Assembly (NCBI RefSeq): GCF_018449695.1 | Contig: NZ_JAAVUY010000002.1 | Location: 62,001 to 126,000, forward strand | Reading direction: 5' to 3' | Length of the DNA stretch: 64,000 nucleotides | Source: Bradyrhizobium sp. dw_411 | GTDB taxonomy: Bacteria; Pseudomonadota; Alphaproteobacteria; Rhizobiales; Xanthobacteraceae | Shown here: positions 16,344 through 62,662 of the stretch, in pieces | Layout of the letters: every line of letters begins with the position of its first letter | Position numbering within the stretch: position 1 is the first letter of the stretch | The notes under the pieces: generated by a model | The model's database searches: none | Told to the model about the DNA's origin: nothing | The model's input: only the letters and a program-made list of their open reading frames with translations | Made by a program: the position numbers and the translations under genes

Positions 16344-16418
16344 TGGGGCGTCGCCAAGTGGTAAGGCAGTGGATTTTGATTCCACCATGCGGAGGTTCGA
16401 ATCCTCCCGCCCCAGCCA
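16344..16418 (+). tRNA. tRNA-Gln (anticodon UUG)
   Basis: The acceptor stem TGGGGCG pairs with CGCCCCA, with discriminator G and an encoded CCA. The anticodon stem GTGGA/TCCAC encloses loop TTTTGAT with anticodon TTG. The T arm GGAGG-TTCGAAT-CCTCC is perfect. The 3' half is repeated at 53656-53708, which marks this gene as the attachment site of the island. Confidence 0.97.
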
Positions 16419-16424
16419 GGCATT
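16372..16424 (+). repeat. Left 53-bp direct repeat (att-like, in tRNA-Gln)
   Basis: It begins GATTTTGATTCCACC in the anticodon arm and ends 6 bases past the CCA (AGGCATT). It is identical base for base to 53656-53708; the flanks then differ (TGATC versus CCGGG). Confidence 0.95.
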
Positions 16425-21456: not shown

Positions 21457-22500
21457 GTGCTCGCTCAAGGCATACCGCTGTCATGGGTCTCCCGGCATTG
21501 CGCGGGGGTCGTCGCGCATGGCGTGCCGCCTGACGTCCTGTTCCAGGAATGCCTTATTGACCGGCGGTTCGGCGATGACCGTGACCAGATTTCGTTCGCT
21601 CAGTTCGGCCTGTTGTGGCTGAATGCAGGGCTCGTGGTCGAGGACGAAGGCCTGGGGCTGACCAGGAAAGGAATGCCACTGGGATTTAGCACGCTCGCGC
21701 TTCGCGTCATGCTGGGCTGCGCAACCGTTGAGCGGGCAATCACGTCCATTATACGGTTCTACAAATTCGCTCCGGTTAGGTTCAGTCTGACGTTCGATGG
21801 TGATGAGGCAATTTTGGCCGCATACAGCGACGACGACGACAGCGGCCCGAATGCGACGATTGTCGAGGAACTGCATCTGACCTTCCTGTACGGATGCCTG
21901 AGCTTGTTCCTTGGCCGTCCGCTGCCCGTGCGCATGTTCCAAACGCGAGATCGCTGCCATGCAAATCTCGACGGATTACACTGGGCAACATTCGCAGCCG
22001 TACGTTACGAACGACTGGCGGCCCTGCGATTCACAAAATCGATCCTGTCGGCGCAGCGTGTCACGGCCGGAACGGACGAGGTCTATTGGGATATGGTCCG
22101 CCCGTGGCTGATGCTAAGTGAAGCGAAATCGACCCTGAGCGAAGAACGCTGGGTTACGCTCGGGGACCTGCGCCTGGACGCACTTGCGCGGGAGGCCGGC
22201 GTCAGCCTCTCAACCGTCCGCCGGCAGATGACATCGACGCATGGAGGGTTCCGGCTGGTGCGAGAAAGGCTTCTTGTTGAGGCAAGCACTCAGCTCCTGA
22301 CCAGTTGCTCACGAAGCGTCGAATCGATCGCCGCCCAATTGGGCTATTCAGATGCGCGCAGTTTCAGACGATTTCTCAAGGGCGCGACGGGAAAGACACC
22401 TGACGCATTGCGCGCGGAAGGTCTGCGCCCTCAGATGGGCGTCCTGACCCCGGAGATATTTGACAGGGCCCGGGAGGCCGCACTTAGGCGGAGCGCTTAG
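21457..22500 (+). CDS. AraC-family regulator with arabinose-binding-like N-domain
   Basis: A 347-residue regulator. The N-terminal half (about 20-200) matches the ligand-binding domain of OruR/ArgR-type AraC proteins (LLWLNAGLVVEDEGLGLTRK, LALRVMLGCATVERAI). The C-terminal AraC HTH pair lies at about 235-330 (LRLDALAREAGVSLSTVRRQ and SIAAQLGYSDARSFRRFLKG). The start is GTG at 21457, backed by a strong TTGGAGG 9 bases upstream. The next gene on the strand is also a regulator, so no obvious structural target is adjacent. Confidence 0.88.
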   Translation: MLAQGIPLSWVSRHCAGVVAHGVPPDVLFQECLIDRRFGDDRDQISFAQFGLLWLNAGLVVEDEGLGLTRKGMPLGFSTLALRVMLGCATVERAITSIIRFYKFAPVRFSLTFDGDEAILAAYSDDDDSGPNATIVEELHLTFLYGCLSLFLGRPLPVRMFQTRDRCHANLDGLHWATFAAVRYERLAALRFTKSILSAQRVTAGTDEVYWDMVRPWLMLSEAKSTLSEERWVTLGDLRLDALAREAGVSLSTVRRQMTSTHGGFRLVRERLLVEASTQLLTSCSRSVESIAAQLGYSDARSFRRFLKGATGKTPDALRAEGLRPQMGVLTPEIFDRAREAALRRSA

Positions 22501-22636
22501 TCGAATCTGTCCCCATCGCCCGGAATGCGTTGAGCGGATACGTCCTTGTCGGTTCGACCGGCGCATGTTTCAGGTACCGCTTGAGATGCCCAGCGGTCCT
22601 CAGGAATGCCGTTTTCAAGCGAGACCGGAGCGAAGC

Positions 22637-25582
22637 ATGACAACGTTAGTTGGCCTGTCGAAGACGTCGTTTCGTTCTTCCCCGTCCATCTCGCTCCCGC
22701 GGTCACCCGATTGCGGCAAATTGTCCTCGTTAAGTAAGCACTTCAAGGACCGTGATGACTTGGATATTGGGACAGGTATCGCATTTGGTCCGTTCCGTTT
22801 GTTGGTGACGGAACGCCTTCTCGAGAAGGCAGGCGTTCCCGTTCCTTTGGGCAGCCGCGCGCTCGACATCCTGATTCTTCTGGCAGAACGTGCAGGTGAG
22901 GTGGTGAGCAAGAGGGACTTGATCTCTCGGGTGTGGCCTGACCTTACAGTGGATGAAAACAGCCTGCGCGTTCATATCGTCAGCCTCCGCAAGGCGCTCG
23001 GAGATGGAAAGGCCGGGGCCCGTTACGTGACCAATGTCACTGGCCGCGGTTATTGCTTCGTGGCGCCAATCACGCAGGCGGTTAAGTCGAAATTTCCCTC
23101 AATTAGAGAAGCCGCGGGCTCCGAACAGCCGCAGACACTTCCACTTCGCTTGAGCAGGATGGTCGGACGTGACGCGACCGTGCGTACGATTTCGGAGCGG
23201 CTTGAGGCGCAGCGCTTTGTGACCATCCACGGACCCGGCGGCATCGGCAAGACCACGGTCGCGGTGTGGGTCGGCCACGCCCAGCTTGCTGCCTTTGAGG
23301 GAGCCGTATGCTTCGTTGATCTCGGGACCCTAAAGAATCCCAGTCTCGTGCCTAGCGCGGTGGCTTCCGCGCTTGGACTTCCCGTTCAATCCAGTGATCC
23401 GACTCCAGACCTCATCCACTTCCTGAGAAATCGGCGGATGCTGTTGATCCTCGATAACTGCGAACACGTTATCGATATCGCGGCTACGCTGGCCGCGCGT
23501 ATTTTCCAACAAGCCCCACGTGTGGCCATTCTGGCGACGAGTCGAGAAGTGCTGAAGGTGGAAGGCGAGCATATATATCGGCTCTCGGCGCTGGAGTGCC
23601 CGCCTGAAGGCATCGAACTGACGGCGGCGCAGATTCTTGCCTTCCCGGCAGCGCATTTATTTGCCGAGCGGGCGGCAGCGGGAGGCTTTCAGTTCAGGCT
23701 CACCGACGAGGATGCCGCGATCGTTGCGGAAATCTGCCGCAAGCTGGATGGCGTAGCGCTAGCGATTGAACTTGCCGCAGGACGGGTGGACACTTACGGG
23801 CTCCTTGAAACTGCGGGTCTCCTCGATAACCGGCTCAGCCTGTTCTGGCATGGACAGCGTACGGCGCTGTCGCGCCATCGAACATTAGCCACGATGGTCG
23901 ACTGGAGTCACGATCTCCTGACGGATGTCGAGCGTACAGTGCTCCGACGCCTTTCGATTTTTGTCGGCTTCTTCAAACTCGAAGCGGCGCAGGCGGTGGC
24001 GGCCGACGACCTTGACGCGACGCAGATCGCAGACGCAGTAGGGCGGCTGGCTGCCAAGTCGCTCATATCCGTCGACGCTTGCGGACCGACGATGCGGTAT
24101 CGGTTGCTCGACGCGACGCGAAATTACGCCTTCGCGAAGTTGGTCGATTGCGGCGAGGAAGATGCGGTCGCACGGAGGCATGCCGTTTATTGTCGAGCAT
24201 TTCTCGAACGTGCCGACGGCGATGACAATAGACGCTCCATTTATATGGAGCATCTTGGCAATGTGCGTGCCGCACTGCAATGGAGCTTCGATCGGGGGGA
24301 TGTGGCGCTCGGCATCGCTCTTGCTGCTGTAGCAACTCGCCTATTCCTCGAACTGTCGCTTTTGAATGAATGTCGCCGCTGGACCGAGCGAGCGCTCTCG
24401 ATGCTAAATGATGCTGCGCTCGGAACACAGGATGAAATGAAACTCCAGGAGGCGCTCGGCCTGTCGCTGATGTTCACGATCGGTAACAACAAGCAGGCTC
24501 ATGCTGCGCTTTCGAGAGGTTTGGAGCTCGCAGAGAAATTTCCCGACCGCATCAACCAATTTCGGCTCATTGGCCGGTTGCACCTGTATCATCGAAGAGC
24601 AGGCAATCTCAGGCTTATGCTCAAGTTTGCAATGCGGGCCATGGCCATAGCGAAGCAAATGGCCGATCCGGTTGGAATAGCCGCCGCAAATTCGCTGGTC
24701 GGCGTCTCACGTCATCTCGTCGGCAACCAGACCGACTCCAGAGCTCACCTGGAAATGGCGCTGGTGCGGCTGCCTTTTTCCAATCGTACCAAAGCCAGCG
24801 ATTTCGGCTTTTATCGCGAGCGTGCGCGGATCGCTCTGGCCCGGACGCTTTGGCTTCAGGGTTATCCAGACCAGGCGGTTCGAATCGCAAGACAAGTGGT
24901 TAGCGAACCCGCGACCTTTGAACCCGTGACACTCTGCATCGTGCTCATTTGGGGCTTTTCTGTTTTTCGCTGGACTGGCGATTGGGCGAGTGGCGAGGAA
25001 TGCGTTGAACGTCTGATTCCGCACGCCGAACGGCATTCTCTGACGGCGTATCGGGCCGTCGGTTTCGGCCTTGCGGGCGAAATGTTGATCAAACGTGGAG
25101 AAATCGAGGCCGGTATGGATCTGCTGCGGGGCTCCATGCAAACGCTGCACGCGGATCAATATACGTTGTATGCGACGGAGTTTAACGCCGCTTTGGCGGA
25201 CGGCTTTGCAATGACGGGTCGCATAGACCAGGCACTTGCGACCATCGACCAAACAATCGCTCGTGTAAGCCGCGATGGGAATTTTCTGATGCCGGAGCTG
25301 TTGCGCGCCCGGGGAAAGCTCCTCGAGCAAACTGCGGATGAGCGGGGAGCCGAAGCCTGCTTCCTGCGTTCGATCGAATTGGCTGGACGGCAATCGGCGC
25401 TATCCTGGCGCCTCCGTGCGTCGACCGACCTTGCCCGACTGAGGTTTAGTCGAGGCCGCTGCGAAGAAGCGCGAAAGTTATTGGCTGAAACCTATGCCTG
25501 TTTCAATGAAGGATTTCATACGGTCGATCTCAGGGCCGCAAAGCAGACGCTTGAAGACATGAGTCAGACGATCGTCGGCTAA
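22637..25582 (+). CDS. Winged-helix regulator fused to NTPase and TPR-like repeats
   Basis: A protein of 981 residues. An OmpR-type winged helix (about 30-140; ALDILILLAERAGEVVSKRD and YVTNVTGRGYCFV) is followed by an NB-ARC/STAND-type NTPase with Walker A HGPGGIGKTTVAV and Walker B MLLILDNCEHV. A helical TPR-like C-terminus runs from about residue 560 to the end. This is the architecture of large signal-integrating ATPase regulators (CadC-like DNA-binding domain, MalT/AfsR-like switch). The start at 22637 is preferred for the GGAG 7 bases upstream; an earlier in-frame ATG (22460) lies inside the previous gene. Trigger and targets are unknown. Confidence 0.88.
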   Translation: MTTLVGLSKTSFRSSPSISLPRSPDCGKLSSLSKHFKDRDDLDIGTGIAFGPFRLLVTERLLEKAGVPVPLGSRALDILILLAERAGEVVSKRDLISRVWPDLTVDENSLRVHIVSLRKALGDGKAGARYVTNVTGRGYCFVAPITQAVKSKFPSIREAAGSEQPQTLPLRLSRMVGRDATVRTISERLEAQRFVTIHGPGGIGKTTVAVWVGHAQLAAFEGAVCFVDLGTLKNPSLVPSAVASALGLPVQSSDPTPDLIHFLRNRRMLLILDNCEHVIDIAATLAARIFQQAPRVAILATSREVLKVEGEHIYRLSALECPPEGIELTAAQILAFPAAHLFAERAAAGGFQFRLTDEDAAIVAEICRKLDGVALAIELAAGRVDTYGLLETAGLLDNRLSLFWHGQRTALSRHRTLATMVDWSHDLLTDVERTVLRRLSIFVGFFKLEAAQAVAADDLDATQIADAVGRLAAKSLISVDACGPTMRYRLLDATRNYAFAKLVDCGEEDAVARRHAVYCRAFLERADGDDNRRSIYMEHLGNVRAALQWSFDRGDVALGIALAAVATRLFLELSLLNECRRWTERALSMLNDAALGTQDEMKLQEALGLSLMFTIGNNKQAHAALSRGLELAEKFPDRINQFRLIGRLHLYHRRAGNLRLMLKFAMRAMAIAKQMADPVGIAAANSLVGVSRHLVGNQTDSRAHLEMALVRLPFSNRTKASDFGFYRERARIALARTLWLQGYPDQAVRIARQVVSEPATFEPVTLCIVLIWGFSVFRWTGDWASGEECVERLIPHAERHSLTAYRAVGFGLAGEMLIKRGEIEAGMDLLRGSMQTLHADQYTLYATEFNAALADGFAMTGRIDQALATIDQTIARVSRDGNFLMPELLRARGKLLEQTADERGAEACFLRSIELAGRQSALSWRLRASTDLARLRFSRGRCEEARKLLAETYACFNEGFHTVDLRAAKQTLEDMSQTIVG

Positions 25583-25927
25583 TAAGCGTTGGTATTTGAA
25601 TCAAGGGCGCGCGCCTGAAAGTCGCGGCCATTCAATCGATGTTGTCGGCAGAAGCGGGCAAACAATCGATCCTTCCTCTTCTTTGAGTGACGAATTCCAC
25701 ACCGATTTGGATCGGCAGTGGCCACGAGCCTGCAAGGTCGGGCTCATATGTTGCTTTCAGCAACAACAGCCAAGCGTCCCGGATCGATCCGGACATCCGA
25801 CGCACAAAGATTCACACTTCTTAAGTCGCGCCCGAAGGCTTTTCGTGGGAATAGCTCACATCCGGAAATTCAGCAGCGAAGTAAAGTTTACGTCGTAGAT
25901 TATCCATTTAACTCAGAGATCAATCCC
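25583..25927. other. Intergenic stretch before histidine kinase
   Basis: No gene is convincing. The kinase ORF is open upstream to 25718, so the kinase could start there, but that N-terminal extension looks random. Confidence 0.4.
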
Positions 25928-26656
25928 ATGAGCTTAATAGAGCAGCCAGTAAATACGGGGATGACGGGAAGGGCAGGCCTGCAACGGGCCGCTGACTTCC
26001 AGGCCGTTCTCCTCGGTATGATTGCACATGATCTTCGACAGCCGTTGCAGGTAATACAAAACGTTGGCGATCTCCTTGGCGTCGGCATTCGAACAAAATC
26101 CGAACAGCGTCTGTTGCGAATGGGTCGGCACGCGACCGATCGCCTGACCAGGCAACTCGATCAACTACTGGGTGCTCTGCGTCTCCACGATCACTGCGGG
26201 GGCGTAAAGATTTCGGCCGTCGCTCTTGAGCCGCTATTTTGGCAGGCTTGTCGTGAAAACAAGGAATTTGCGTCGCAGAAAGGCGTGGAAATCAGCGTAT
26301 GTCCGACGACGGTGTCGGTGATGAGCAACGCCGTGCTCCTCACCGGAATCCTTCGAAATCTGGTCAGCAACGCCGTCAAATATACCGAGCCCAAAGGCCG
26401 GGTTCTTATCGGGTGCCGCCGTTCGAGCGAATATGTACGTATCGATGTTTACGATACCGGGATAGGCATCACGCAGGATCAATTGCCTGGAATTTTTGAA
26501 GCGTTCCATCGTCTCGACTACGCACGCTGTAGCGGTATTGGCGTTGGTTTATTCATCGTGCGGCGGACCGCCGACGTGCTCGGACACGGCATCGACGTCA
26601 GCTCGGTCGTCTCCCGCGGTTCGCGCTTTTCCATATCAGCAGCACGAGCCGACTAG
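25928..26656 (+). CDS. Soluble sensor histidine kinase, short
   Basis: A 242-residue kinase core with no visible sensor or membrane domain. The H-box is LGMIAHDLRQPLQVIQN with His34. The ATPase domain has ILRNLVSNAVKYTE, YDTGIGI, GIFEAFHRLD and GIGVGLFIVRRTADVLGHGI. All catalytic boxes are intact, so it is probably active and must receive its signal through a partner. The start at 25928 is chosen because the sequence before it is not conserved-looking; the ribosome binding site is weak. It is followed 63 bases later by a DNA-binding protein that lacks a receiver domain, an odd pairing. Confidence 0.85.
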   Translation: MSLIEQPVNTGMTGRAGLQRAADFQAVLLGMIAHDLRQPLQVIQNVGDLLGVGIRTKSEQRLLRMGRHATDRLTRQLDQLLGALRLHDHCGGVKISAVALEPLFWQACRENKEFASQKGVEISVCPTTVSVMSNAVLLTGILRNLVSNAVKYTEPKGRVLIGCRRSSEYVRIDVYDTGIGITQDQLPGIFEAFHRLDYARCSGIGVGLFIVRRTADVLGHGIDVSSVVSRGSRFSISAARAD

Positions 26657-49891: not shown

Positions 49892-51739
49892 ATGTCGCTT
49901 GGCCTCTTTCTCGCGCAAGCCCTCACGGGGCTGGCATCCGCAGCGACGCTGTTCCTCGTTTCGGTCGGACTTTCGCTCGTCTTCGGAATTACCCGGGTTG
50001 TCAATTTCGCTCACGGCGCGTTCTTCATGGTCGGCGCCTATGTCGGCTACACGCTGACGAACTACTTTGCGGCCAGCGATGCCTTGTCCTACTGGCTTTG
50101 CGTTGTTGCCGCCGCCGTCATCGTCGGTGCGATCGGAATGGCGGTCGAACTGCTGTTGATGCGACGCATGTACAAGGTGCCGGAGCTGTTTCAGCTTCTG
50201 GCAACATTCGCCGTTTCATTGCTGATTGACGACATCCTTCCGATCATCTTCGGCCCGGAGGACCTGCTTGCTCCGCGGGTGAGGTCGTTGCGGGGCGGTA
50301 TCGACCTTTTCGGCGCGCGGATGCCGGTCTACGATCTGTACATGATCGCAGCCGCGGCGATCGTGCTCTTGCTTCTTTACATTGCGATCACGCGCACGCG
50401 ATGGGGCGTTCTCATTCGCGCGGCCACCCAGGACCGCGACATGGTCGGCGCTCTCGGCGTCAATCAGGCATGGCTGTTCACCGGTGTATTCACGCTCGGC
50501 GTATTCCTCGCCGGCCTTGCGGGCGCGCTGCAACTGGGGCGCACATCGGCCAATCTCGGCATGGGCACCAGTGCGATCACTGAAGCTTTCGTCGTCGTCG
50601 TTATCGGCGGCATGGGAAGCGTTACCGGCGCACTGGTGGCAGCGATCCTGATCGGTGAACTCTCCGCGCTCGGTGTCGCATATTTTCCGCAGCTTAACCT
50701 GGTCCTGATGTTCCTGATCATGGCTGCCGTTCTCGCTGTGCGGCCATCGGGCCTGTTCGGCAAGCCCGAGGCGTTGACACGCCAGCATGAATTTTCGGAC
50801 GAACCGCCGCTGCGGGCCATCAGCCGCCCGCTGGCTTTCGCCGCGATTGCGTTGCTCGCGCTGCTGACCATTGCACCGGCCGTACTCGGGACTTACGGGC
50901 TCAGCGTCGTCGTCGATGTCATGATTGCGATCGTGTTTGCCGGCAGCCTCTATTTGATACTGGGGCCGGGCGGACTCGTGACCTTCGGCCACGCCTGCTA
51001 TTTTGGCGTCGGTGCGTATGCCGTCGCTTTGGGGATACGCTATGCCGGTTTGTCGTTCGCGAGCGCCCTCGTGCTGGCACCGCTGGCGGCGAGCCTGTTC
51101 GCCCTCGCTTTCGGCTGGCTGTCGGTTCGCGTCTCCGGTGTCTACTTCGCCATGCTGACATTCGCATTGGCGCAGATCGTCTGGTCGGTCGTGTTCCAGT
51201 GGTACGATGTGACAGGCGGCGATAACGGCCTGATCGGACTTTGGCCAACCAGCCTGTCGCCGCTGGTTTTCTATTTCGTCACGCTTGCCCTGACCGCGGG
51301 ATCCATCGCAATCCTCGGCTGGATCCCGCACAGCGCGCTCGGCTACGCCTTGCGTGTCACGCGAGATTCGCCGGCGCGGGCAGCGGCAATCGGCATCGAC
51401 GTACGCCTGGTACGGCTCTTCGCGTTCGTGATCGCGAGTCTTTTTGCCGGTCTGGCCGGCGGCTTGTCGGCTTTCGCCAAAGGCAGCGTGTTTCCGACCG
51501 CGATCAGCATTGGCCGATCGATCGATGGTTTGGTCATGGTACTGATGGGCGGTGTCGAGTCGATTGCCGGACCGGTGGTGGGGGCGGCCATGTTCTACCT
51601 AATGCAGACCGAGATACTTCGCTATACCGACCGATGGCGGCTGGTATTGGGGGTATTGATCATTCTGATCGTGCTGGTGTTCCCAAAGGGAGTCGTTGGC
51701 TCTATCAGCCAACGGCTGCGCGGAGAGGAATCCCGATGA
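49892..51739 (+). CDS. Fused LivH-LivM ABC transporter permease
   Basis: A 615-residue membrane protein joining both permeases of a branched-chain-amino-acid-type importer in one chain. Residues 1-290 are LivH-like (LVSVGLSLVFGITRVVNFAH, VVVIGGMGSVTGALVAAILI), residues 290-320 a polar linker (GLFGKPEALTRQHEFSDEP), and 320-615 LivM-like (LVTFGHACYFGVGAYAVALG, GLVMVLMGGVESIAGPVVGA). Usually these are two genes. The reading frame is continuous with no sign of error. The stop overlaps the next ATPase gene by 4 bases. Confidence 0.93.
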   Translation: MSLGLFLAQALTGLASAATLFLVSVGLSLVFGITRVVNFAHGAFFMVGAYVGYTLTNYFAASDALSYWLCVVAAAVIVGAIGMAVELLLMRRMYKVPELFQLLATFAVSLLIDDILPIIFGPEDLLAPRVRSLRGGIDLFGARMPVYDLYMIAAAAIVLLLLYIAITRTRWGVLIRAATQDRDMVGALGVNQAWLFTGVFTLGVFLAGLAGALQLGRTSANLGMGTSAITEAFVVVVIGGMGSVTGALVAAILIGELSALGVAYFPQLNLVLMFLIMAAVLAVRPSGLFGKPEALTRQHEFSDEPPLRAISRPLAFAAIALLALLTIAPAVLGTYGLSVVVDVMIAIVFAGSLYLILGPGGLVTFGHACYFGVGAYAVALGIRYAGLSFASALVLAPLAASLFALAFGWLSVRVSGVYFAMLTFALAQIVWSVVFQWYDVTGGDNGLIGLWPTSLSPLVFYFVTLALTAGSIAILGWIPHSALGYALRVTRDSPARAAAIGIDVRLVRLFAFVIASLFAGLAGGLSAFAKGSVFPTAISIGRSIDGLVMVLMGGVESIAGPVVGAAMFYLMQTEILRYTDRWRLVLGVLIILIVLVFPKGVVGSISQRLRGEESR

Positions 51740-53655: not shown

Positions 53656-53708
53656 GATTTTGATTCCACCATGCGGAGGTTCGAATCCTCCCGCCCCAGC
53701 CAGGCATT
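53656..53708 (+). repeat. Right 53-bp direct repeat (orphan tRNA-Gln 3' part)
   Basis: It is identical to 16372-16424, from the anticodon arm of tRNA-Gln through CCA and 6 bases more. The 5' half of the tRNA is absent here, so it is not a working tRNA gene but an attachment-site remnant. Confidence 0.95.
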
Positions 53709-53894: not shown

Positions 53895-54050
53895 ACTGCC
53901 GCCTGACCTGGCACACCGTTTAGACCAAGTCTCTGCTCCCGAATACGTGGATTTGGGAGTGCTTCGTCGTAACTGCCACGCGACCTTGGCACTCCGTTTC
54001 GAGCAAGTCTCTGCTCCTGACCACGTGGATTTGGGAATTTTTCGTCGAAA
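53895..54050. repeat. Two imperfect tandem copies of a 76-78 bp unit
   Basis: The units start at about 53895 and 53971. They share ACTGCC, GGCAC.CCGTTT, GCAAGTCTCTGCTCC or CCAAGTCTCTGCTCC, ACGTGGATTTGGGA and TTCGTCG. A third copy begins (ACTGCCGCGCAAG) and is cut off. Short ORFs across it inherit the repeat and do not look like genes. No gene is supported in 53709-54303. Confidence 0.75.
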
Positions 54051-54303
54051 CTGCCGCGCAAGCCGCAGTGCGATACGTCTAGTTCTTCCCCGGTTGCAGG
54101 GAGACGGGGCAAATTTCGTTGCGTGGCCCTCCAAAAACTAACTTTCGATCCCAAACTCATTTGACTCCAACAGCCTACTCAAGGTTGTTTGTTCTCCATG
54201 CCGATTATGCGCGATTTACCCTTGCGGTACTTTGACTTGCTGCGGATACATGGAAAACCATCGGATTACGCCGTAATCCATATCACTACGAAATGGTTGG
54301 GCG

Positions 54304-57300
54304 ATGAAAATTGAATTTCTCAATCCCCAGGGGCCGCAGCCGACCGAAATGGTTGGGCTTACCGAACTGCGCACCAAGTTGCCGTCCTCGTGGCGCGGCT
54401 TCGCAAATTTTAATATGCGTAATACACGCCAACGAGGGCAGGACCGAGAAATTGATGTCGTGCTAATCGTTCCTGATAGACTAATTCTTGTTGACCTTAA
54501 GCATATGAGGGGACGAATCGAAAGCCGAAGCGGGCGTTGGTATAAGGGCACGGAGGATATTGGCCAGTCGGCTGCGAACAAGGTACGAGAAAACGCTAAG
54601 GTGTTTGCGGACCTAATTCGCAAGCAGGTATCTCAGATTCCCGGCTCACCTCCGATAGAATCCGCGGTCGTATTCACGCATCATGACGTTGATTTGGGTG
54701 GATTGACTCAGAATGAAAAGGACAGGTGTTTCAAACTTGTTGATTTTCTAAGAATTGCGAATCCAAGCGAGTTCGCTAAACCGTTTACAGCGCGCAGTAA
54801 CTTTGGCGCTGATGAAACTCTAAATTCAGGCCCATACTTTCAAGCGCTTCAAAAACTTTTCACGAATGGGAAGTTTATCGAGCCTCGAAAAGCCAAGTAT
54901 CACGGTTTCATTCCTACGGGCGACCCGGAATTCGAGCATGCTTTATTTGAGGAGTACGCTTGCAACGACGTGGCCGATCCTAATTACGCCGGTCTTCTTC
55001 GCATTTGGGATTTTTCGAAGGATCCTGACACCTTTGCTCTCGAAGAAGAACGACGTCCCGTTGCAGAACGAGAGAGAGCGCTTCTGGGGTACGTTCGGAC
55101 ACAGAACCCGAATTTCTTTGATAATTACGTTCTTCGGTCGATCGCTCATGATCGTGATTACAGTCTTCGTTATACCGAGATTTTCGAGCGACACGACGAA
55201 CTGGCTCGCCTAACGCGCCTCGCGGGCAGCATGGTTGATTTAGAAATTGAGCGACGGATAGAACTATCCCGCTTATTTCTTGACAGAGTTGCATCACTGC
55301 ACCGCATGCGCATTGCACACCGCGACCTGGATCGTCACTCCGTTTGGGTTAATGAACGAAGGAGTAGCATTGTCCTGTCGGGATTTGGAGCGTCACACTA
55401 CCCGGAAAGGCAAACCCTAGGGGACCAGCGCGCCAAGTTGCTCGCTAGCGGACATCGGGTCCCAGAAGATACAGGGGACGGCAAGCCTGGGACCGTATTT
55501 CAACAAGACGTATTTCTGGCAGCAGCAACGGTATGGATTTTACTAACAGGAGAGCGTTTGCCCGCTTTAAACGGTGTGCCCGTTTGGAGTGCGTCGTTGC
55601 TAGAAGCAAACAAAGAATTGCCCCCAGAGTTAGGTCCTTGGTTTGACACTTCTATGTCGATCGACGCTGCTGATCGATATGTTGACGGGGTTGAAGGAGC
55701 CGAAAAATTCGGCGAAGCCCTAGCGAAAAATAATCGAATTGCGCTTGACCAACAGCTCAATCGTTTCGTCAGGGAGGTAGATCCGTTGGTGGATTTTCCT
55801 GTCCTTCCCAATGGATGGATCGTCAAACGGCCCTACCGCGTGTTCAAAGCTCGATACGAATCTGAAGCCTCCACGGTATTAGTGAAAAGTTGGCCGAGCC
55901 AATATCTCGGCGACCGGCGCAAATCTGCAGCTCGTCTTCTTGATTTCTTTGCCCGTACGGAACGGCTAGAGGTGCTTGCTGCCGATTGGGCTCCGTGCAT
56001 TCGGCTTTCTTGTCTATGCATGGACGGGCTCCTGTTGATCCAAGATTGGGTTGAAGGCGAAACTCTTGCCGCCCCATCAACTGTGGCCCCGTGGTCCTTA
56101 GACATATTGAAGGAATTCCTTCTCAAGTTTGTCTTAGCGGTAGAGGAGCTCCACAAGGCCGGCCTCGCACATGGAGATCTTAAACCAAGCAACGTCGTCG
56201 TTTCTTATGGTGTGGATGACGACAACGCGCCCCGTCCAGTGCTTATAGATTTGCTGGATTACTCTCCCGAGGGCGCGGGAGAGCGGATGACCTTGGCTTA
56301 CTGCCCGCCTCATTCGGCTGATGATATTCAACTGAGAGACCGATTTGCCGTAGGCCAAATCGTTCGCGAGCTAGTAGCGAGCTTCGCTGACAGAGACCAA
56401 GGACTAGTACAGAAGATCCTGGCCGCTGTAGATGCATGTGATGCCGGGGATGAACCTTGGATTAGTCTCCGTCCGCTGCGTGATGCGCTGACGACTACTA
56501 CGAAGCTTCACGCTCCAATCGCTGATTTGATGCATCTGTCAATCGAGATTCGTAACCCCTTGGCTGAAGGTCCGATGTTGGCAGATAACGGTTCGTTTCA
56601 CGTGGTTACAAAGTTCGCCGAGAGCACGATTGTCGTTTACGGCTTCGATCAGAAGGTTGACATCAAGATTGACTTAGCCGACGGCATTCCTCGATATGCC
56701 GGCACGTATTCATTCAACACAATGGAAGCTGATTGGGCTCTCAATCACTGCGATTTTTCATTTAAGGGCGAGGTCAAAATTTCGCGTTCTGCTACGCCGA
56801 GGTTTTCGGGCTTCGAAGGATTGCGTCCTCATTTAGCAAAGATTGCAGGCTTCAACCCGGATTCGACGGGTCCAATACAGTCCGCAGTCCTGGGATTGCC
56901 AAAGCCCATTCAAGAGGTCTCGCCCGAAGCCACAAGAAAGACGGGATTGCTGCAGTTAGCGAAATTCCCGGTCGTCCGTTTTTGGCAAGAAACTATTGCA
57001 GTAGAGGAGAGCATCCAACCCGAGCTTACTTTGGTGGAGGCTCCGAGAGAAACACACGAGCCTGGGATAATAATCCTGTCATGCGCTGAGGCGATCGGTG
57101 ACCTGTCCGACTTCGGGGATGGTTCAGCTAACGTAAGCGTCACATGGAATGGAATAAAGGTTGGCGATCTAGATTCGGAGCGTTCAAAAGGAGATTTAAT
57201 CACTATTCGGAATGCGCGGTTTTACAACCGGCTCCGTACGGGTGATACGCTCAAGATCCAATTTTCGAACGATTTGGCGAGCTTTCAGCGGAGGTCGCGT

Positions 57301-59148
57301 GCGGTAGCGCGAATTCTGCAGGGTAAGGGCCAACTTACAAATCTAGTCCAGTATTTCGATCCGCAAGCTTCGTTAACGCCCGAAGTTATGGCGGAAGCCA
57401 TAGAAGAAGGCGCCCTTGATGATTACGGATTAAACGACGATCAAGAAGAGGCCTTCCGCCATCTTTGGCGTCACGGACCTGTCGGACTTCTCCAAGGACC
57501 ACCAGGCACCGGAAAGACGCTATTCATCGCGAGCTTTGTTCATTGGGCCCTCAGTAAAAAAGGCCAGATGCGAAATGTGCTCGTGCTTTCGCAATCTCAT
57601 GAAGCCGTCAATACCGCTGCAGAGCGCATTCTGAAGGTTTTTGGCGAACTCGGAGGGGAGGTCGATCTTCTCAGGATTGGACAGCACGACAAAATATCGC
57701 CTCCACTACTTCGCTATCACTCGCAGTCAATTCAAGATCGTAATCGGGAGCTATTTCAGGCCGAAATAAAGGAGCGTCTAGCAATAGCAGCAAGAAAATT
57801 GGGGCTTAATCGATCTTACGTTAAGGAGTCTTACGAAGTTGAGGCCACCTTTGGAGCTTTAGTACGGCAGATCAATCTTTCGAGTCAGGATGCGCAGCAG
57901 AACGATGCAGATGCTGTTCGGGCGGCACGGCAGCGGTTGGGCTCACTCGAAGCTTCGTTTCACCGACTAGTCTCTGAAAAGGCGACGCCCTACGACGGAT
58001 TACCGAGCGAAATCCTTGAGGATATTCGCGATGATACTGCCCGACGTCACGTCGTTTTCGACCCTGATGCTCGACGGAGATTTTTGAAACTTGAAGAATT
58101 ATCTCGAAAATGGGTTTCAGTTTTAAATACGCGCAACAGAAATTTGGAAGAATTCTTTGCGCGGAGCCGTAATTTGGTTTGCGGGACGTGCGTCGGGATC
58201 GGTCGTCAGGGAATGCGAATAGATCGCGGGACTTTCGATCTAGTGATCATTGATGAAGCTGCCCGCTGCACTCCCGGGGAACTAGCTGTTGGTATGCAGT
58301 CCGGCAAACGCGTGCTCCTAGTCGGTGATCATCGCCAGCTCCCCCCGCTATTCGGGCATGAACTTTTGAGTGAGGTCAGCACAAAGCTTCCTGGCATTGA
58401 TAAAAAGGAACTTCAAAGAAGCGATTTCGAACGCGCCTTCGGGTCAAGCTACGGAAAATCCAATGGGCGAACGCTTCGAAAGCAGTACAGGATGGCGCCC
58501 GAAATTGGAGCGATTGTATCCGATGTTTTTTATCCAGGAGAAAAACTGGAGACTTTGCGAGGCGCGCCTCATGTAATTTACAGTGAATTGCCGGCCCCGT
58601 TGGACCAACAAATTCTTTGGATCGATACAGGAAGTCCGGGGAAGGGCGGGCGCGAGACTGCGTCGGGCACCAGTTTCACGAACCGAAGAGAGGCGGTAAT
58701 CATCCTTGAGCTTTTACGTCGTATTGCAAGATGCAAATCATTTATGGACAACGCCGCCCAAGCTCTAGAGCTGAAGGATGGGGAGCCACTGGTTGGTGTA
58801 ATCTGCACATATGCCCAACAAGCAGAGCTTCTTGAGAATATGCTGCTCGCGTCAGATGTGCCGCCGGCAATTCGCTCGTTAGTTAAGATAGATACCGTCG
58901 ATGCCTATCAAGGTAAAGAAAATCGGATAGTTATCCTTTCGCTCGTCAGAAGTAACCCCGAGAGTAATATGGGTTTTGTACGAAATCAAAACCGGATCAA
59001 CGTGGCCTTATCAAGGGCTATGGACAGATTAATTTTAGTTGGGGCGGCTGCTATGTTCGAGCATACTCACAACCCGCTTCGCTCTGTGGTCAAGCGGCTG
59101 CGAATGATCCATCGAATTCGTTCATCCGCGAATGTCTTAGGATTATAA
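54304..59148 (+). CDS. NERD - kinase-like - kinase - UPF1-type helicase fusion
   Basis: A 1,614-residue multidomain protein. Residues 15-150 are a NERD nuclease-related domain (TELRTKLP, DREIDVVLI, LILVDLKHMRG). About 200-500 is a protein-kinase-like domain with HRD at 339-341 but an unusual HRDLDRHSVW loop and SGFG instead of DFG, so probably inactive. About 515-750 is a second kinase domain with STVLVKSW (Lys), HGDLKPSN at 623-630 and LIDLLDYS. About 750-1030 is unassigned. From about 1045 an SF1 helicase follows: Walker A GPPGTGKT (1065-1072), LSQSHEAVN, Walker B IIDEAARC (Asp1317-Glu1318), GDHRQLPP, RKQYRMAP, DTVDAYQGKENRIVILS and INVALSRA. The region is A+T-richer than the core. It is coupled to the next gene by a TAATG overlap. 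Likely an anti-phage effector/sensor; this is inference. Confidence 0.9.
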   Translation: MKIEFLNPQGPQPTEMVGLTELRTKLPSSWRGFANFNMRNTRQRGQDREIDVVLIVPDRLILVDLKHMRGRIESRSGRWYKGTEDIGQSAANKVRENAKVFADLIRKQVSQIPGSPPIESAVVFTHHDVDLGGLTQNEKDRCFKLVDFLRIANPSEFAKPFTARSNFGADETLNSGPYFQALQKLFTNGKFIEPRKAKYHGFIPTGDPEFEHALFEEYACNDVADPNYAGLLRIWDFSKDPDTFALEEERRPVAERERALLGYVRTQNPNFFDNYVLRSIAHDRDYSLRYTEIFERHDELARLTRLAGSMVDLEIERRIELSRLFLDRVASLHRMRIAHRDLDRHSVWVNERRSSIVLSGFGASHYPERQTLGDQRAKLLASGHRVPEDTGDGKPGTVFQQDVFLAAATVWILLTGERLPALNGVPVWSASLLEANKELPPELGPWFDTSMSIDAADRYVDGVEGAEKFGEALAKNNRIALDQQLNRFVREVDPLVDFPVLPNGWIVKRPYRVFKARYESEASTVLVKSWPSQYLGDRRKSAARLLDFFARTERLEVLAADWAPCIRLSCLCMDGLLLIQDWVEGETLAAPSTVAPWSLDILKEFLLKFVLAVEELHKAGLAHGDLKPSNVVVSYGVDDDNAPRPVLIDLLDYSPEGAGERMTLAYCPPHSADDIQLRDRFAVGQIVRELVASFADRDQGLVQKILAAVDACDAGDEPWISLRPLRDALTTTTKLHAPIADLMHLSIEIRNPLAEGPMLADNGSFHVVTKFAESTIVVYGFDQKVDIKIDLADGIPRYAGTYSFNTMEADWALNHCDFSFKGEVKISRSATPRFSGFEGLRPHLAKIAGFNPDSTGPIQSAVLGLPKPIQEVSPEATRKTGLLQLAKFPVVRFWQETIAVEESIQPELTLVEAPRETHEPGIIILSCAEAIGDLSDFGDGSANVSVTWNGIKVGDLDSERSKGDLITIRNARFYNRLRTGDTLKIQFSNDLASFQRRSRAVARILQGKGQLTNLVQYFDPQASLTPEVMAEAIEEGALDDYGLNDDQEEAFRHLWRHGPVGLLQGPPGTGKTLFIASFVHWALSKKGQMRNVLVLSQSHEAVNTAAERILKVFGELGGEVDLLRIGQHDKISPPLLRYHSQSIQDRNRELFQAEIKERLAIAARKLGLNRSYVKESYEVEATFGALVRQINLSSQDAQQNDADAVRAARQRLGSLEASFHRLVSEKATPYDGLPSEILEDIRDDTARRHVVFDPDARRRFLKLEELSRKWVSVLNTRNRNLEEFFARSRNLVCGTCVGIGRQGMRIDRGTFDLVIIDEAARCTPGELAVGMQSGKRVLLVGDHRQLPPLFGHELLSEVSTKLPGIDKKELQRSDFERAFGSSYGKSNGRTLRKQYRMAPEIGAIVSDVFYPGEKLETLRGAPHVIYSELPAPLDQQILWIDTGSPGKGGRETASGTSFTNRREAVIILELLRRIARCKSFMDNAAQALELKDGEPLVGVICTYAQQAELLENMLLASDVPPAIRSLVKIDTVDAYQGKENRIVILSLVRSNPESNMGFVRNQNRINVALSRAMDRLILVGAAAMFEHTHNPLRSVVKRLRMIHRIRSSANVLGL

Positions 59149-60644
59149 TGGCGAGCCAAAAGGAATATTTGGAAGCGACTGAGAAGGCGTTAGCTGCTAT
59201 CGAAATCGAGCAGTTGTCGTTTGTCGTTCGTGCGCAGAAATTTAGAATAACTGCGACGGTTATGAAGCGTACAGCTATGCCTCTTGCAACTGAGTACGCT
59301 GTGCGCCTTGTACATCTTGCGCCCGATATCGGCGCAGAAGAGCTTGCAGGCTTTTTCGGCTTTGGGGCTCCCGAGACCCAAGTATTGATTCAAGATATGC
59401 TTGAGACTCAGCTCGTAACGGAACGGGACGGCAGATTTTCGCTGTCTACAAAGGGGCGTGAAGCCGTATCGCCAATGTCCGACGACATTGAGCTTTTCGA
59501 AGTGGACGAAATAAATGCGATTCAATGTTTTGATCTGATTGCCTTCGCTCCGGTGGATGACGCAGACCTCAATGCGGCGGAGGCGCGACGCGTACCTGAG
59601 ATCACCATACCGAATCGGGAACGTGCTGCCGCGGCAGTAGTTGAAGCAAGGCAGGCATTTGAGACGCACTTTGCAGAGTGGTATCAGCGCAACGATAGAC
59701 GCAAGCGCATTGAGGACATACAGCTACATGCGGTGGATGACATACAGCCTCTAAGAACTTTTGGTGCTCCGTTGCATTTTCCAATCCGTTATCGGCTCGA
59801 TGACCCTGCGTCAATCGAAGCTGATTTCGCTTTTCTACGGAATAGAGGGAGGCCTGCCTCGCGAAACGCGCTGATAGAAGCATTGAGTGCCTCTATTCAA
59901 GGACTTTCCTCTCCACCGGATCATGCGGATGGATTTCATTGGTTGTCCAACGTGGACGCAGGTCTTCTGACACGCTCAGGTCTTCGCGATTTTAAAGATC
60001 AAGCAACTTGGGCTCGGCTTTGCGCCGATCCGAGTACGCGTTCCTTCGGCGAGCACGGCTCGCAGGTAGTTCGGCTATTTGGTTCTGTGACGGGAGCACT
60101 GACGCGCGCCACCATTATCCAATGGGCAAAAACAGTCGCAACTGATCGCCCCGAATTGCCCACGCCTATTTTTTGGTTGCCACCACGGGCATCGTATTGG
60201 GGCCGAAGTGTTGCGTTTACGGAATTGGTTCGGGAAATGGCTAGCGCTGATCCAGATGGTATCGTCCTTCTAGCAAGGACAGATGGGTCGTCTCGGGAGG
60301 CGTCGTCTTGGAGGCGTTTCTTTGGTCCAAGAGAAAGTCGATCTCCGTTGTTCAATCGCTGTTTTATTGTGAATCCAAAGATACCGGATTCGGTGGAGAT
60401 TATTATTAAGCCTGGCGCGTGGGGATTGGTATTGGTGCACACACCGGAAATTGCGACGGGCTTTCCGCTCCCCATGGGATATATAACTTCCGACCCTTCG
60501 ATCGCGATGGAACTGCGGCGTTCTCTTGCTGAAGTCGTGGCTGCCTCCGACGGTTCTAAAGCAGTGTTATGGTCGAGCGGCGCCGAACGTCCAGCGATGG
60601 CCTTGGCATACATCGATTTGGCTCTTGGAATTGGCGAAGCGTGA
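59148..60644 (+). CDS. Partner of the helicase: winged-helix protein of unknown function
   Basis: A 498-residue protein that starts on the last base of the helicase stop codon (TAATG), so it is translated with it in a fixed ratio. Residues 50-110 look like a winged helix (GAEELAGFFGFGAPETQVLI, LVTERDGRFSLSTKGRE). About 165-225 is charged and helical. The C-terminal 150 residues alternate strands and helices (PTPIFWLPPRASYWGRSVAF, DGIVLLARTDGSS, FNRCFIVNPKIP, EIIIKPGAWGLVLV) in a way that could be a degenerate PLD-like or other alpha/beta domain, but no HxKxxxxD motif is present. I do not recognise the family. Confidence 0.85.
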   Translation: MASQKEYLEATEKALAAIEIEQLSFVVRAQKFRITATVMKRTAMPLATEYAVRLVHLAPDIGAEELAGFFGFGAPETQVLIQDMLETQLVTERDGRFSLSTKGREAVSPMSDDIELFEVDEINAIQCFDLIAFAPVDDADLNAAEARRVPEITIPNRERAAAAVVEARQAFETHFAEWYQRNDRRKRIEDIQLHAVDDIQPLRTFGAPLHFPIRYRLDDPASIEADFAFLRNRGRPASRNALIEALSASIQGLSSPPDHADGFHWLSNVDAGLLTRSGLRDFKDQATWARLCADPSTRSFGEHGSQVVRLFGSVTGALTRATIIQWAKTVATDRPELPTPIFWLPPRASYWGRSVAFTELVREMASADPDGIVLLARTDGSSREASSWRRFFGPRESRSPLFNRCFIVNPKIPDSVEIIIKPGAWGLVLVHTPEIATGFPLPMGYITSDPSIAMELRRSLAEVVAASDGSKAVLWSSGAERPAMALAYIDLALGIGEA

Positions 60645-60677: not shown

Positions 60678-60699
60678 CTTTGAGTGTCAGATCTCAAAG
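60678..60699. terminator. Small hairpin between convergent genes
   Basis: CTTTGAG-TGTCAGAT-CTCAAAG is a 7-bp inverted repeat between the helicase partner gene and the convergent gene that ends at 60694. It could terminate transcription from both sides, but the stem is short and the T tract poor. Confidence 0.3.
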
Positions 60700-61806
60700 G
60701 CGATTTATTCTAAGACTTGATAAGAGCTCGACCGCATTAGAAATCTGCTTCTCTTCGAAATCGCGGTTCCGAGTGGCCGGCTTCCAATTGTCCTCGACTC
60801 TCTTTGTTTGTTCTACCATCGCTTCTAGAGCAGCACTCAAAGCATCCACGATGTATGGTTCTCTCGGTAATTCCGATGCACAAAAAGAGATGATCTTAAG
60901 AACCTCGTCGATCTCACCTCGTTTCGCCAAGAACTTGAAGAGCACAGAGAAAAGGCGTTGAGGTCGCAAGAAATCAAATATCAAGAATGGCTCGGCCGCC
61001 AGACGATCACATAGGAAATCTCCAAGTTCGCGCGGCTCGTACCCAAATGTGATCCATCGCTCCAATAGTGCAAAGACTATACTTTTGATTCCAGAATTTT
61101 CCTGTTCCTCCCCACCACGTTGAAAAATCCAATTCAATGCCACTTCAGGAACGCGATCGTCAAATGGGGTTCGTTCGTTCACGAAATGCCATATCTTAGT
61201 CCAATCTGATTTGCCGAAATTTGATCGATTGCTAAGCCAGCGAACAAGGTATTCATCGCTGTAGTTCGATATCGAACCGTAGATTCCACTTTCGGAAGCT
61301 TTGGGCTCGTCCGGTTCTAATGGATCAATTTCGGACCATATCTTCTTCTGCTTCTGGAAGAGGTGCAGTTCTGAATCGACCCAGAATTTTATTTGATCCT
61401 TTTCGTAAAAAACAGTGTCGGCGACCGCTCTCCAAATATCGTAGGAAGGGTTCAGCTCGGCTGACTCGATACGGTTTAATTGTGATTGAAGAATGGGGAT
61501 GTTCGCTATCGCTTCTTGATGCTTCGCGATGTAGGCGAGTATCTCGCTAACATTGCCACAGACGATATTTCCGTCATAGGATCGAAATGCAATTAAGCCC
61601 TTATCGCCAACCGTTATCGTGTGCGAAGATTCGAAAGGGATTAATGGATAGTTCTCATATTCGAGAAATGGGACGACTTCTTTTACTTGCAAATACTCGT
61701 CCATTTGTTGGACGTACGGAAGATTGGTGTTGGGGGATGAGAGGAGTGGTATCAGAACCCCCGGATTTCCCTCAGAGATGTCTAAAAACATTATGAGGCT
61801 AAACAT
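60694..61806 (-). CDS. Unknown protein, 370 residues, defence-region gene
   Basis: I do not recognise this protein. It is acidic and soluble. The first 150 residues are mixed strands and helices; the rest is mainly helical with many Trp and Phe (DEYLVRWLSNRSNFG, DWTKIWHFVNERTPFDD, GYEPRELGDFLCDRLAAEPF), resembling helical-repeat packing. The ATG at 61806 overlaps the stop region of the upstream gene; a GTG at 61818 and an ATG at 61791 are alternatives. It is translationally coupled to the gene at 61799-62662. A+T-rich codon use matches the helicase gene, suggesting shared ancestry of the segment. Confidence 0.75.
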   Translation of the reverse strand: MFSLIMFLDISEGNPGVLIPLLSSPNTNLPYVQQMDEYLQVKEVVPFLEYENYPLIPFESSHTITVGDKGLIAFRSYDGNIVCGNVSEILAYIAKHQEAIANIPILQSQLNRIESAELNPSYDIWRAVADTVFYEKDQIKFWVDSELHLFQKQKKIWSEIDPLEPDEPKASESGIYGSISNYSDEYLVRWLSNRSNFGKSDWTKIWHFVNERTPFDDRVPEVALNWIFQRGGEEQENSGIKSIVFALLERWITFGYEPRELGDFLCDRLAAEPFLIFDFLRPQRLFSVLFKFLAKRGEIDEVLKIISFCASELPREPYIVDALSAALEAMVEQTKRVEDNWKPATRNRDFEEKQISNAVELLSSLRINRL

Positions 61807-62662
61807 TGTAGTAGCCACGACTGGAATAGAAATTATCGAGTTTCTCGTAGATGGAATGGTAATAAAACTCCTTGCGAAGTGGATAAACGGGATACGTTAG
61901 AATCTCTGCGCCAAGTGCCGAAATTTTCGCGATATATTCTTCGTTTGAAAGATATGTCTCCGGAAATATCGCTAGAATGGGTTTGCGATTTGTCAGATCG
62001 ATGTCAGCGTTGAATTGGACTTCAATTGCAAATCGGCGATCGTCAAAACGTTTGTCTTTGTGTTGAATTAATTTGTGAAGAGCTTTCATTTCTTCATCTA
62101 AAACGTCGACATCAAACATCGCTTCGAATTGCTCTTTCGGTCGCGACGCGAGGCGATAATAGCTGCGAGCACTGTTGAAGAACGTGCCAATTATCTTATG
62201 CGGCGCTTCGACATCCGAACTCGTCTCAAAGTCGTTTAGCTCCATCATGTTTATGTAGTTGGGATATCGCTTTGCCGCAAAGGCTCCGGAATCGAAGGGA
62301 AAAATTCTCTTCGCTCCTTCAGTGAAAAAGCTAAAAACTAAACAAGTTGGTAATTCCCAGTATTCCGCCTCCTGTTCCAGGTCGCGCTTGTAGGCAGCTC
62401 GCCCCACAAAAAAATATGAAAGCCTTTCCCCAGCAAAAACGTTGCATCGCTGTGTAGTCAGCTGACCGGAATTTATGATCTTTTTCAGGTAATACGACTC
62501 AGTAGTGTGGACCAGAGGCAGCGGCTTAGCTTTGGTGATGCGGTTTCTTTGCAAAAACTGCGAGAGAGCTGACATAGAGTCTCCGATCATGTCCTCACGA
62601 CAACATAGAGCGATCGAGATATCCTGGCGTGCAACTGCGCTTCTAGCTTCTTGAATATTCAA
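61799..62662 (-). CDS. Unknown protein, possible ADP-ribosyltransferase-like fold
   Basis: A 287-residue protein (or 263 if starting at the ATG at 62590). The segment PLPLVHTTESYYLKKIINSG, then LTTQRCNVFAGERLSYFFVG, resembles the start of DarT/ART-like domains, where an H-T/H-F-T followed by a helix and a basic strand contacts NAD. Further on come CLVFSFFTEGAKRIFPFDSG and FFNSARSYYRLASRPKEQFE. The resemblance is by eye only, and no catalytic Glu can be fixed. It is upstream of, and coupled to, the 370-residue gene. The pair could be a toxin-antitoxin or defence module. Confidence 0.7.
   Translation of the reverse strand: MNIQEARSAVARQDISIALCCREDMIGDSMSALSQFLQRNRITKAKPLPLVHTTESYYLKKIINSGQLTTQRCNVFAGERLSYFFVGRAAYKRDLEQEAEYWELPTCLVFSFFTEGAKRIFPFDSGAFAAKRYPNYINMMELNDFETSSDVEAPHKIIGTFFNSARSYYRLASRPKEQFEAMFDVDVLDEEMKALHKLIQHKDKRFDDRRFAIEVQFNADIDLTNRKPILAIFPETYLSNEEYIAKISALGAEILTYPVYPLRKEFYYHSIYEKLDNFYSSRGYYNV

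Follow-up and report, generated by a model that had tools for sequence, protein, structure and literature searches.

We report on two overlapping genes, mkoA and mkoB, found in a 64,000-nucleotide stretch of the genome of Bradyrhizobium sp. dw_411 (contig NZ_JAAVUY010000002.1, positions 62,001 to 126,000 of the forward strand; hereafter the window, whose own numbering is used). Sequence models place the pair in Mokosh type I, among the loci that carry a NERD domain. We consider it moderately probable that the NERD domain of MkoA is the nuclease and that MkoB, a protein with a predicted phospholipase D (PLD)-like fold lacking the HKD motif, is a non-catalytic sensor or adaptor. Since MkoB is without its catalytic motif while the NERD domain is intact, it is the latter that probably cuts the invader. 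What the sequences show directly is how the domains are ordered, that the motifs of NERD, second kinase and helicase are intact, that the two genes are coupled in this order and that HKD is missing from the branch as sampled; complex formation, substrate, gating and phage protection by the pair are what we infer.

The mkoA gene (54304..59148, +) encodes 1,614 amino acids and mkoB (59148..60644, +) 498. Both are adjacent and co-oriented, and base 59148 is common to their two open reading frames (ORFs), the last base of the mkoA stop codon being the first of mkoB, as an earlier note on this DNA had stated. Such coupling is kept: 29 of 31 NERD-type pairs, the window pair included, lie -56 to +5 bases apart. 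In PADLOC-DB, MkoA matched PDLC03921 with 1343 bits (residues 1-1600 on profile positions 1-1587 of 1607), and MkoB matched PDLC03923 with 199 bits (residues 18-470). Next in rank for MkoA were further MkoA/MkoC models, whose best stretch was the helicase, and the N-terminal part of PglW. Because Mokosh models match both genes, we assign the pair to this catalogued system. That the pair, a possible distinct variant in the earlier note, lies outside Mokosh could thus not be upheld: the models cover both proteins, and the table of a 2023 review, citing Millman 2022, already lists NERD alongside a PLD-like domain for Mokosh type I (PMC10952713), so that a NERD domain in Mokosh is not new.

MkoA combines a NERD domain, a pseudokinase, a kinase and a UPF1-type superfamily 1 (SF1) helicase in one chain. 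This architecture, anticipated in the earlier note, was borne out by Pfam (NERD, protein kinase, AAA_11 and AAA_12) and by motif conservation in 108 homologues. The NERD domain (PF08378; 54361..54678, +; residues 20-125 by Pfam), related to nucleases of the PD-(D/E)xK type, has E49, D51, D64 and K66 intact. D51 and K66 are invariant in the 108 homologues, and residue 64 is always D or E. Likewise, across the 31 NERD-type loci, D51 and K66 are kept in all 31, residue 49 is E in 29 and D in 2, and residue 64 is E in 21 and D in 10. With its catalytic residues kept in both sets, the NERD domain is likely a nuclease, as had been suggested.

The first kinase domain (55234..55731, +) is degenerate and predicted to be a pseudokinase: it keeps HRD, lacks the Asp of DFG and has a Ser at the Asn position. 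Among the homologues, D341 of HRD is present in 108/108, Ser replaces the catalytic-loop Asn in 103/108, and Asp occurs at the DFG position in 0/108. The second kinase domain (55843..56253, +), with K528, HGDLKPSN and D649, is predicted to be active (Lys528 in 107, D625 of HGD in 107, Asn630 in 105 and Asp649 in 107 of the 108). The UPF1-like SF1 helicase core (57430..59049, +) contains a Walker A motif (57496-57516) that is invariant among the homologues. Its UPF1 type, also claimed earlier, is in agreement with AAA_11/AAA_12 by Pfam and with NAM7/UPF1 as the best matches in PDB.

Mokosh type I, as defined in Millman 2022, reportedly includes a catalytic PLD (HKD) nuclease in MkoB. The window MkoB has no match in Pfam, and an HxK motif was not found anywhere in the protein. 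It is predicted to contain a MarR-like winged helix (59244..59495, +) and, toward the C terminus, a PLD-like fold without HKD motif (60048..60572, +). Foldseek placed PLD proteins first for the model of the window MkoB (best E value of 2.3e-3, probability of 1.00), and the model of a Citrobacter MkoB only 19% identical to it was also PLD-like (E value of 1.7e-5, probability of 1.00). The earlier note had suggested that the partner may be a DNA-binding adaptor; a winged helix is indeed predicted, but the protein would be more than that, its C terminus being predicted PLD-like. Conversely, the possibility raised there of a plain MkoB of the PLD family holds in part: the partner is MkoB by model, but the HKD is absent.

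To describe this branch we used 159 NERD-type MkoBs, namely those of the 31 loci and 128 database proteins. One search behind this set contributed the best 120 of its 515 matches, and 8 of 136 database MkoB matches, each shorter than 440 amino acids, were left out of the count. The sequence H-x-K-x4-[DE] was present at the corresponding site in 0/159, and Lys at the HxK position also in 0/159, which extends to the whole sample the missing HKD nuclease motif reported for the window partner in the earlier note. Elsewhere in the protein the sequence occurs in 4/159, versus a mean of 12.35 in shuffled sequences. In its place, these MkoBs harbor an E417...H431...P442-x-G444 signature (60396..60488, +), nearly invariant in the 159 and presumably the counterpart of the HKD hairpin. 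Indeed, E417 is kept in 158/159, H431 in 157/159 and G444 in 157/159, the exceptions being locus L047 and two cut-short proteins. Pfam found a PLD family at an E value of 0.01 in 0/33 NERD-type MkoBs, and PLDc_2 at the same value in 12 of 13 MkoBs of the HKD type. The N-terminal parts of both kinds nevertheless align by profile comparison (window residues 21-138, probability of 92.7, E value of 4e-7), which ties both groups together as MkoB.

We compared MkoA loci gathered from genomes and plasmids, the partner being the next co-oriented gene. The 49 loci comprise 31 of NERD type and 18 without NERD; three others were dropped before counting, as the contig ends after the helicase (L051), the downstream ORF was not found (L159) or the piece is without MkoA (L162). 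Near-copies are present among the loci (L048/L135/L144/L154, L155/L156 and L049/L151). In the 31 NERD-type loci the NERD domain lies within MkoA, except in L139, L147, L149 and L156, where it is in a separate upstream ORF. In L139, L147 and L149 the NERD or NERD-kinase part, separate from the helicase gene, is still beside MkoB, with an IS3 element in between in L147. An HKD with its following context was found in 0/31 partners of NERD-type loci, the MkoBs of L135 and L150 being cut short at the site.

Among the NERD-less loci, 13 of 18 have an HKD partner, and we refer to these 13, defined by a full-context HKD partner, as the HKD kind. Since the HKD defines this kind, its presence in 13 of 13 would be a circular argument, and we do not rely on it. 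MkoA served to retrieve the NERD-type loci, and the state of their MkoB is therefore unbiased; for 12 of the 13 HKD-kind loci the query was an MkoB, which leaves the NERD state as the unbiased one. To check this selection, plasmid records were also retrieved with an HKD-kind MkoA; of the 8 obtained, 7 were also in the MkoB search, and the eighth is L174. NERD was found by Pfam in 0/13 HKD-kind MkoAs, which are 1,123 to 1,199 amino acids long in 12/13 (L167 is a 689-amino-acid ORF). Their MkoBs are mostly near 590 amino acids, with one or two HKD motifs. The only three HKD-kind loci tested with PADLOC (L052, L160 and L161) matched PDLC03920/PDLC03922 best. On one Acinetobacter plasmid (NZ_MT742182.1), a NERD-type Mokosh (L146) occurs together with, at another place, a kinase-helicase MkoA that belongs to the other kind (L174), whose 356-amino-acid partner, without Pfam PLD, is followed by an IS3 element.

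In a helicase tree of 56 rows built by a quick method, the NERD type forms one clade with a Shimodaira-Hasegawa-like approximate likelihood ratio (SH-aLRT) support of 100. A second clade, also with an SH-aLRT of 100, contains 12 of the 13 HKD-kind loci as well as L174. Other UPF1 helicases and L052 fall outside both.

How such a system could work is suggested by precedents in PglW/DndF, in FAM83 and in Dpd-like systems, for which swaps between PLD and PD-(D/E)xK nucleases have been described in a passage of PMC12458937. MkoB would be a sensing or docking subunit that uses its winged helix and its inactive PLD-like domain to bind MkoA and a nucleic acid or ligand, and the helicase, acting as a sensor, would engage foreign nucleic acid and move along it. 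The pseudokinase-kinase pair may restrain the NERD domain until phosphorylation or ATP-driven movement frees it, and the released NERD would then cut, with RNA, an RNA-DNA hybrid or DNA as candidate substrates. A broader version of this model, which we put forward tentatively as quite possible, is that Mokosh type I comprises two machines with opposite nucleases. In one, MkoB would be a working PLD (HKD) nuclease beside a plain kinase-helicase MkoA; in the other, to which the window pair would belong, a NERD domain on the helicase would do the cutting under pseudokinase-kinase control, next to a TrmB-like, nuclease-dead MkoB sensor whose retained His and Glu would bind either a ligand or the kinase of MkoA.

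Several observations weigh against a NERD nuclease with a non-catalytic MkoB. A full-context HKD partner is missing from five of the 18 loci without NERD: L054 and L174 have short partners, the partner of L158 matches no MkoB model, and the cyanobacterial L095 is without kinase match and has one HxK-like motif lacking the context. The fifth, L148, is truncated: its MkoA of 513 amino acids consists of the helicase only and follows a recombinase and VapC, and the locus, nested inside the NERD clade, has neither nuclease. Moreover, since the two kinds form two separate clades, the reciprocal NERD/HKD pattern amounts to about one switch, which may have been a loss of HKD or a gain of NERD. NERD activity in the window MkoA is a prediction from kept residues, and a passage on PglW of BREX proposes NERD as a backup nuclease there (PMC12839542). 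On the side of MkoB, the window model gave no Foldseek match at an E value of ≤0.001, with TM-scores of about 0.2 by query and up to 0.5 by target, and no sequence profile linked its C-terminal domain to either PLD half of HKD-type MkoB (hhalign probability of <1%). Descent of MkoB from an active PLD is thus putative, drawn from the predicted fold. Finally, His431 and Glu417 are nearly invariant, for which reason an altered active site in MkoB must be considered. MkoB would then still be a nuclease, its PLD-like domain having a site rearranged on these two residues, and NERD would be accessory or backup. The predicted fold and the persistence of both residues at identities to the window MkoB as low as 14-20% favor this view; however, the Lys of HxK and the HKD are missing at the site in all 159 sequences, Pfam detects no PLD in 33 of 33, and the NERD catalytic residues are fully conserved. 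We regard it as unlikely.

Still less probable to us is that the kinase is the effector, with NERD binding nucleic acid without cutting, the helicase sensing the phage, and phosphorylation of host or phage proteins halting the infection. The second-kinase motifs are conserved in 105 to 107 of 108 homologues, PADLOC PD-T4-6 kinase models match both kinase regions of MkoA, and Pfam also detects a kinase in 9/13 HKD-kind MkoAs at an E value of ≤0.01 (3 above the Pfam cut-off), but invariant metal-site residues in NERD are unexpected for a domain that only binds. An orphan BREX type 2 or MADS module in place of Mokosh, for which the match of the NERD-kinase part with MAD6 (121 bits, residues 15-513) and PglW (residues 15-355) could speak, seems extremely unlikely, as these scores are far under the respective cut-offs of 460 and 990 bits, the MkoA/MkoB models fit better over nearly the whole length, and PglZ, PglX, BrxC or a methylase was not found among the neighbors scanned (the ORFs at 60694-62662 and two upstream genes, which are parts of an ATP-binding cassette [ABC] transporter). 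A NERD nuclease with a non-catalytic MkoB remains our preferred reading.

The pair likely sits in a genomic island, because it lies in a segment of low guanine-plus-cytosine content (44 to 53%, versus 58 to 63% at 46 to 53 kb, left of a tRNA repeat), next to that tRNA-Gln 3' repeat and upstream of a serine recombinase. The tRNA-Gln(ttg) gene is at 16344-16418, and a perfect 53-base copy of its 3' end (16372-16424) recurs as a direct repeat 37 kb downstream (53656..53708, +), left of the pair, where it is a likely island attachment site; mkoA begins about 600 bases to its right. Such perfect direct repeats of a tRNA 3' end commonly mark an integrated element. The serine recombinase (Resolvase/Recombinase; L163:10221-11882) is about 7.6 kb downstream of mkoB and a ParB-DNA-methylase ORF (L163:14768-16237) about 12 kb downstream, right of the window, which suggests that the island continues beyond it. 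Upstream of mkoA, a 73-base sequence is present twice (53909-54059), at 85% identity and 78 bases apart. Beside mkoB are two overlapping AT-rich ORFs of 374 and 287 amino acids (60694-62662, minus strand). In 72,556 plasmid records, the first had no tblastn match at 1e-3, and the second had 13, mostly rhizobial and none with a named function.

For 17 NERD-type loci we compared the ORFs on either side (76 out of 94, together with the two window neighbors) with the PADLOC models. Among the first 25 of 229 families were AbiH, CBASS cyclase and phospholipase, Gabija, Avs1, AriA, DruH, DpdE and Ppl. This supports the defense-type context proposed in the earlier note and contradicts neighbors that are never defense related, though no PADLOC model matched the two downstream ORFs of the window. 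AbiH adjoins L136 by both PADLOC and annotation, and a patatin and a nucleotidyltransferase are annotated there too. By name, neighbors include Avs1b (L048), GajB (L047), a DpdE/ZorD-like helicase (L046) and a partial HEC-05 match (L044); six of the ten loci in this by-name scan were without match. PDLC03921 matched at an E value of ≤1e-60 in 9 of 398 genomes sampled across the phylum, the window's included (in six the match covers 94% or more of the model), and at 1e-80 in 6 of 397 sampled across the order. A 3,900-base piece of a Citrobacter NERD-type mkoA has matches in 349 of 5,426 Escherichia coli genomes, and in 328 of these the match spans 80% or more of the piece. Elsewhere in the window, 22460-25582 encodes a 1,040-amino-acid protein with a Trans_reg_C DNA-binding domain, an NB-ARC/STAND NTPase and tetratricopeptide repeats, adjoining a histidine kinase (25718-26656), and a 615-amino-acid ORF (49892-51739) fuses UrtB-like and then UrtC-like parts of a branched-chain/urea-type ABC permease, both below the cut-off.

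The mechanism of Mokosh is given as unknown in a passage of a 2026 review (PMC12926258), and a passage elsewhere says that it degrades viral transcripts (PMC11291487). An HKD-less, NERD-carrying branch as a separate mechanism was not described in the titles and abstract openings found, a search that covered neither subscription papers nor preprints outside PMC. If the nuclease differs between the branches, conclusions drawn from one, e.g., on the HKD of MkoB, would not transfer to the other. In addition, the NERD-pseudokinase-kinase module, known from PglW and some DndF, is present in Mokosh as well, which makes a common control step testable.

The closest known system is Mokosh type I as modeled by PDLC03921 and PDLC03923, which the pair resembles in near whole-length matches, gene order and coupling. 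It differs from the type I entry in the table of PMC10952713, where a PLD-like domain is listed, in that 31/31 NERD-type MkoBs compared, that of the window included, are without HKD. With the HKD kind of type I (PDLC03920 and PDLC03922, e.g., on a Mesorhizobium amorphae plasmid, L164) it shares the UPF1 helicase, the kinase in front of it and a winged-helix MkoB; unlike in the window pair, MkoA is there without NERD, MkoB has the HKD and the helicase belongs, for 12/13, to a separate clade. Mokosh type II, where MkoC unites helicase and nuclease in one chain, was rejected, as there are two genes here, and the MkoC model matched best on the helicase (residues 1309-1594; 111.8 bits for the protein). 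PglW of BREX type 2 and the NERD form of DndF have NERD, an inactive kinase and an active kinase in the same order, but in PglW, as a passage of PMC12839542 has it, winged helix-turn-helix domains and an inactive STAND follow the module, whereas MkoA continues with the UPF1 helicase. No Dnd or BREX partners were found beside the window pair, and the best stretch for full-length PglW was only residues 15-355 (86.6 bits). MAD6 of MADS is similar in its NERD-kinase N terminus, but its model has 612 positions and a cut-off that the window MkoA does not reach. MAD6 is part of a larger operon linked to methylation. The biology of TrmB regulators and FAM83 pseudo-PLDs is unrelated, and they are a precedent only for an inactive PLD fold as a binder. 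In TrmB, this fold binds a ligand. In FAM83, it anchors the kinase CK1 (PMC6008594). Overall, we rate the pair as a known family by sequence and, by mechanism, as a variant of Mokosh type I.

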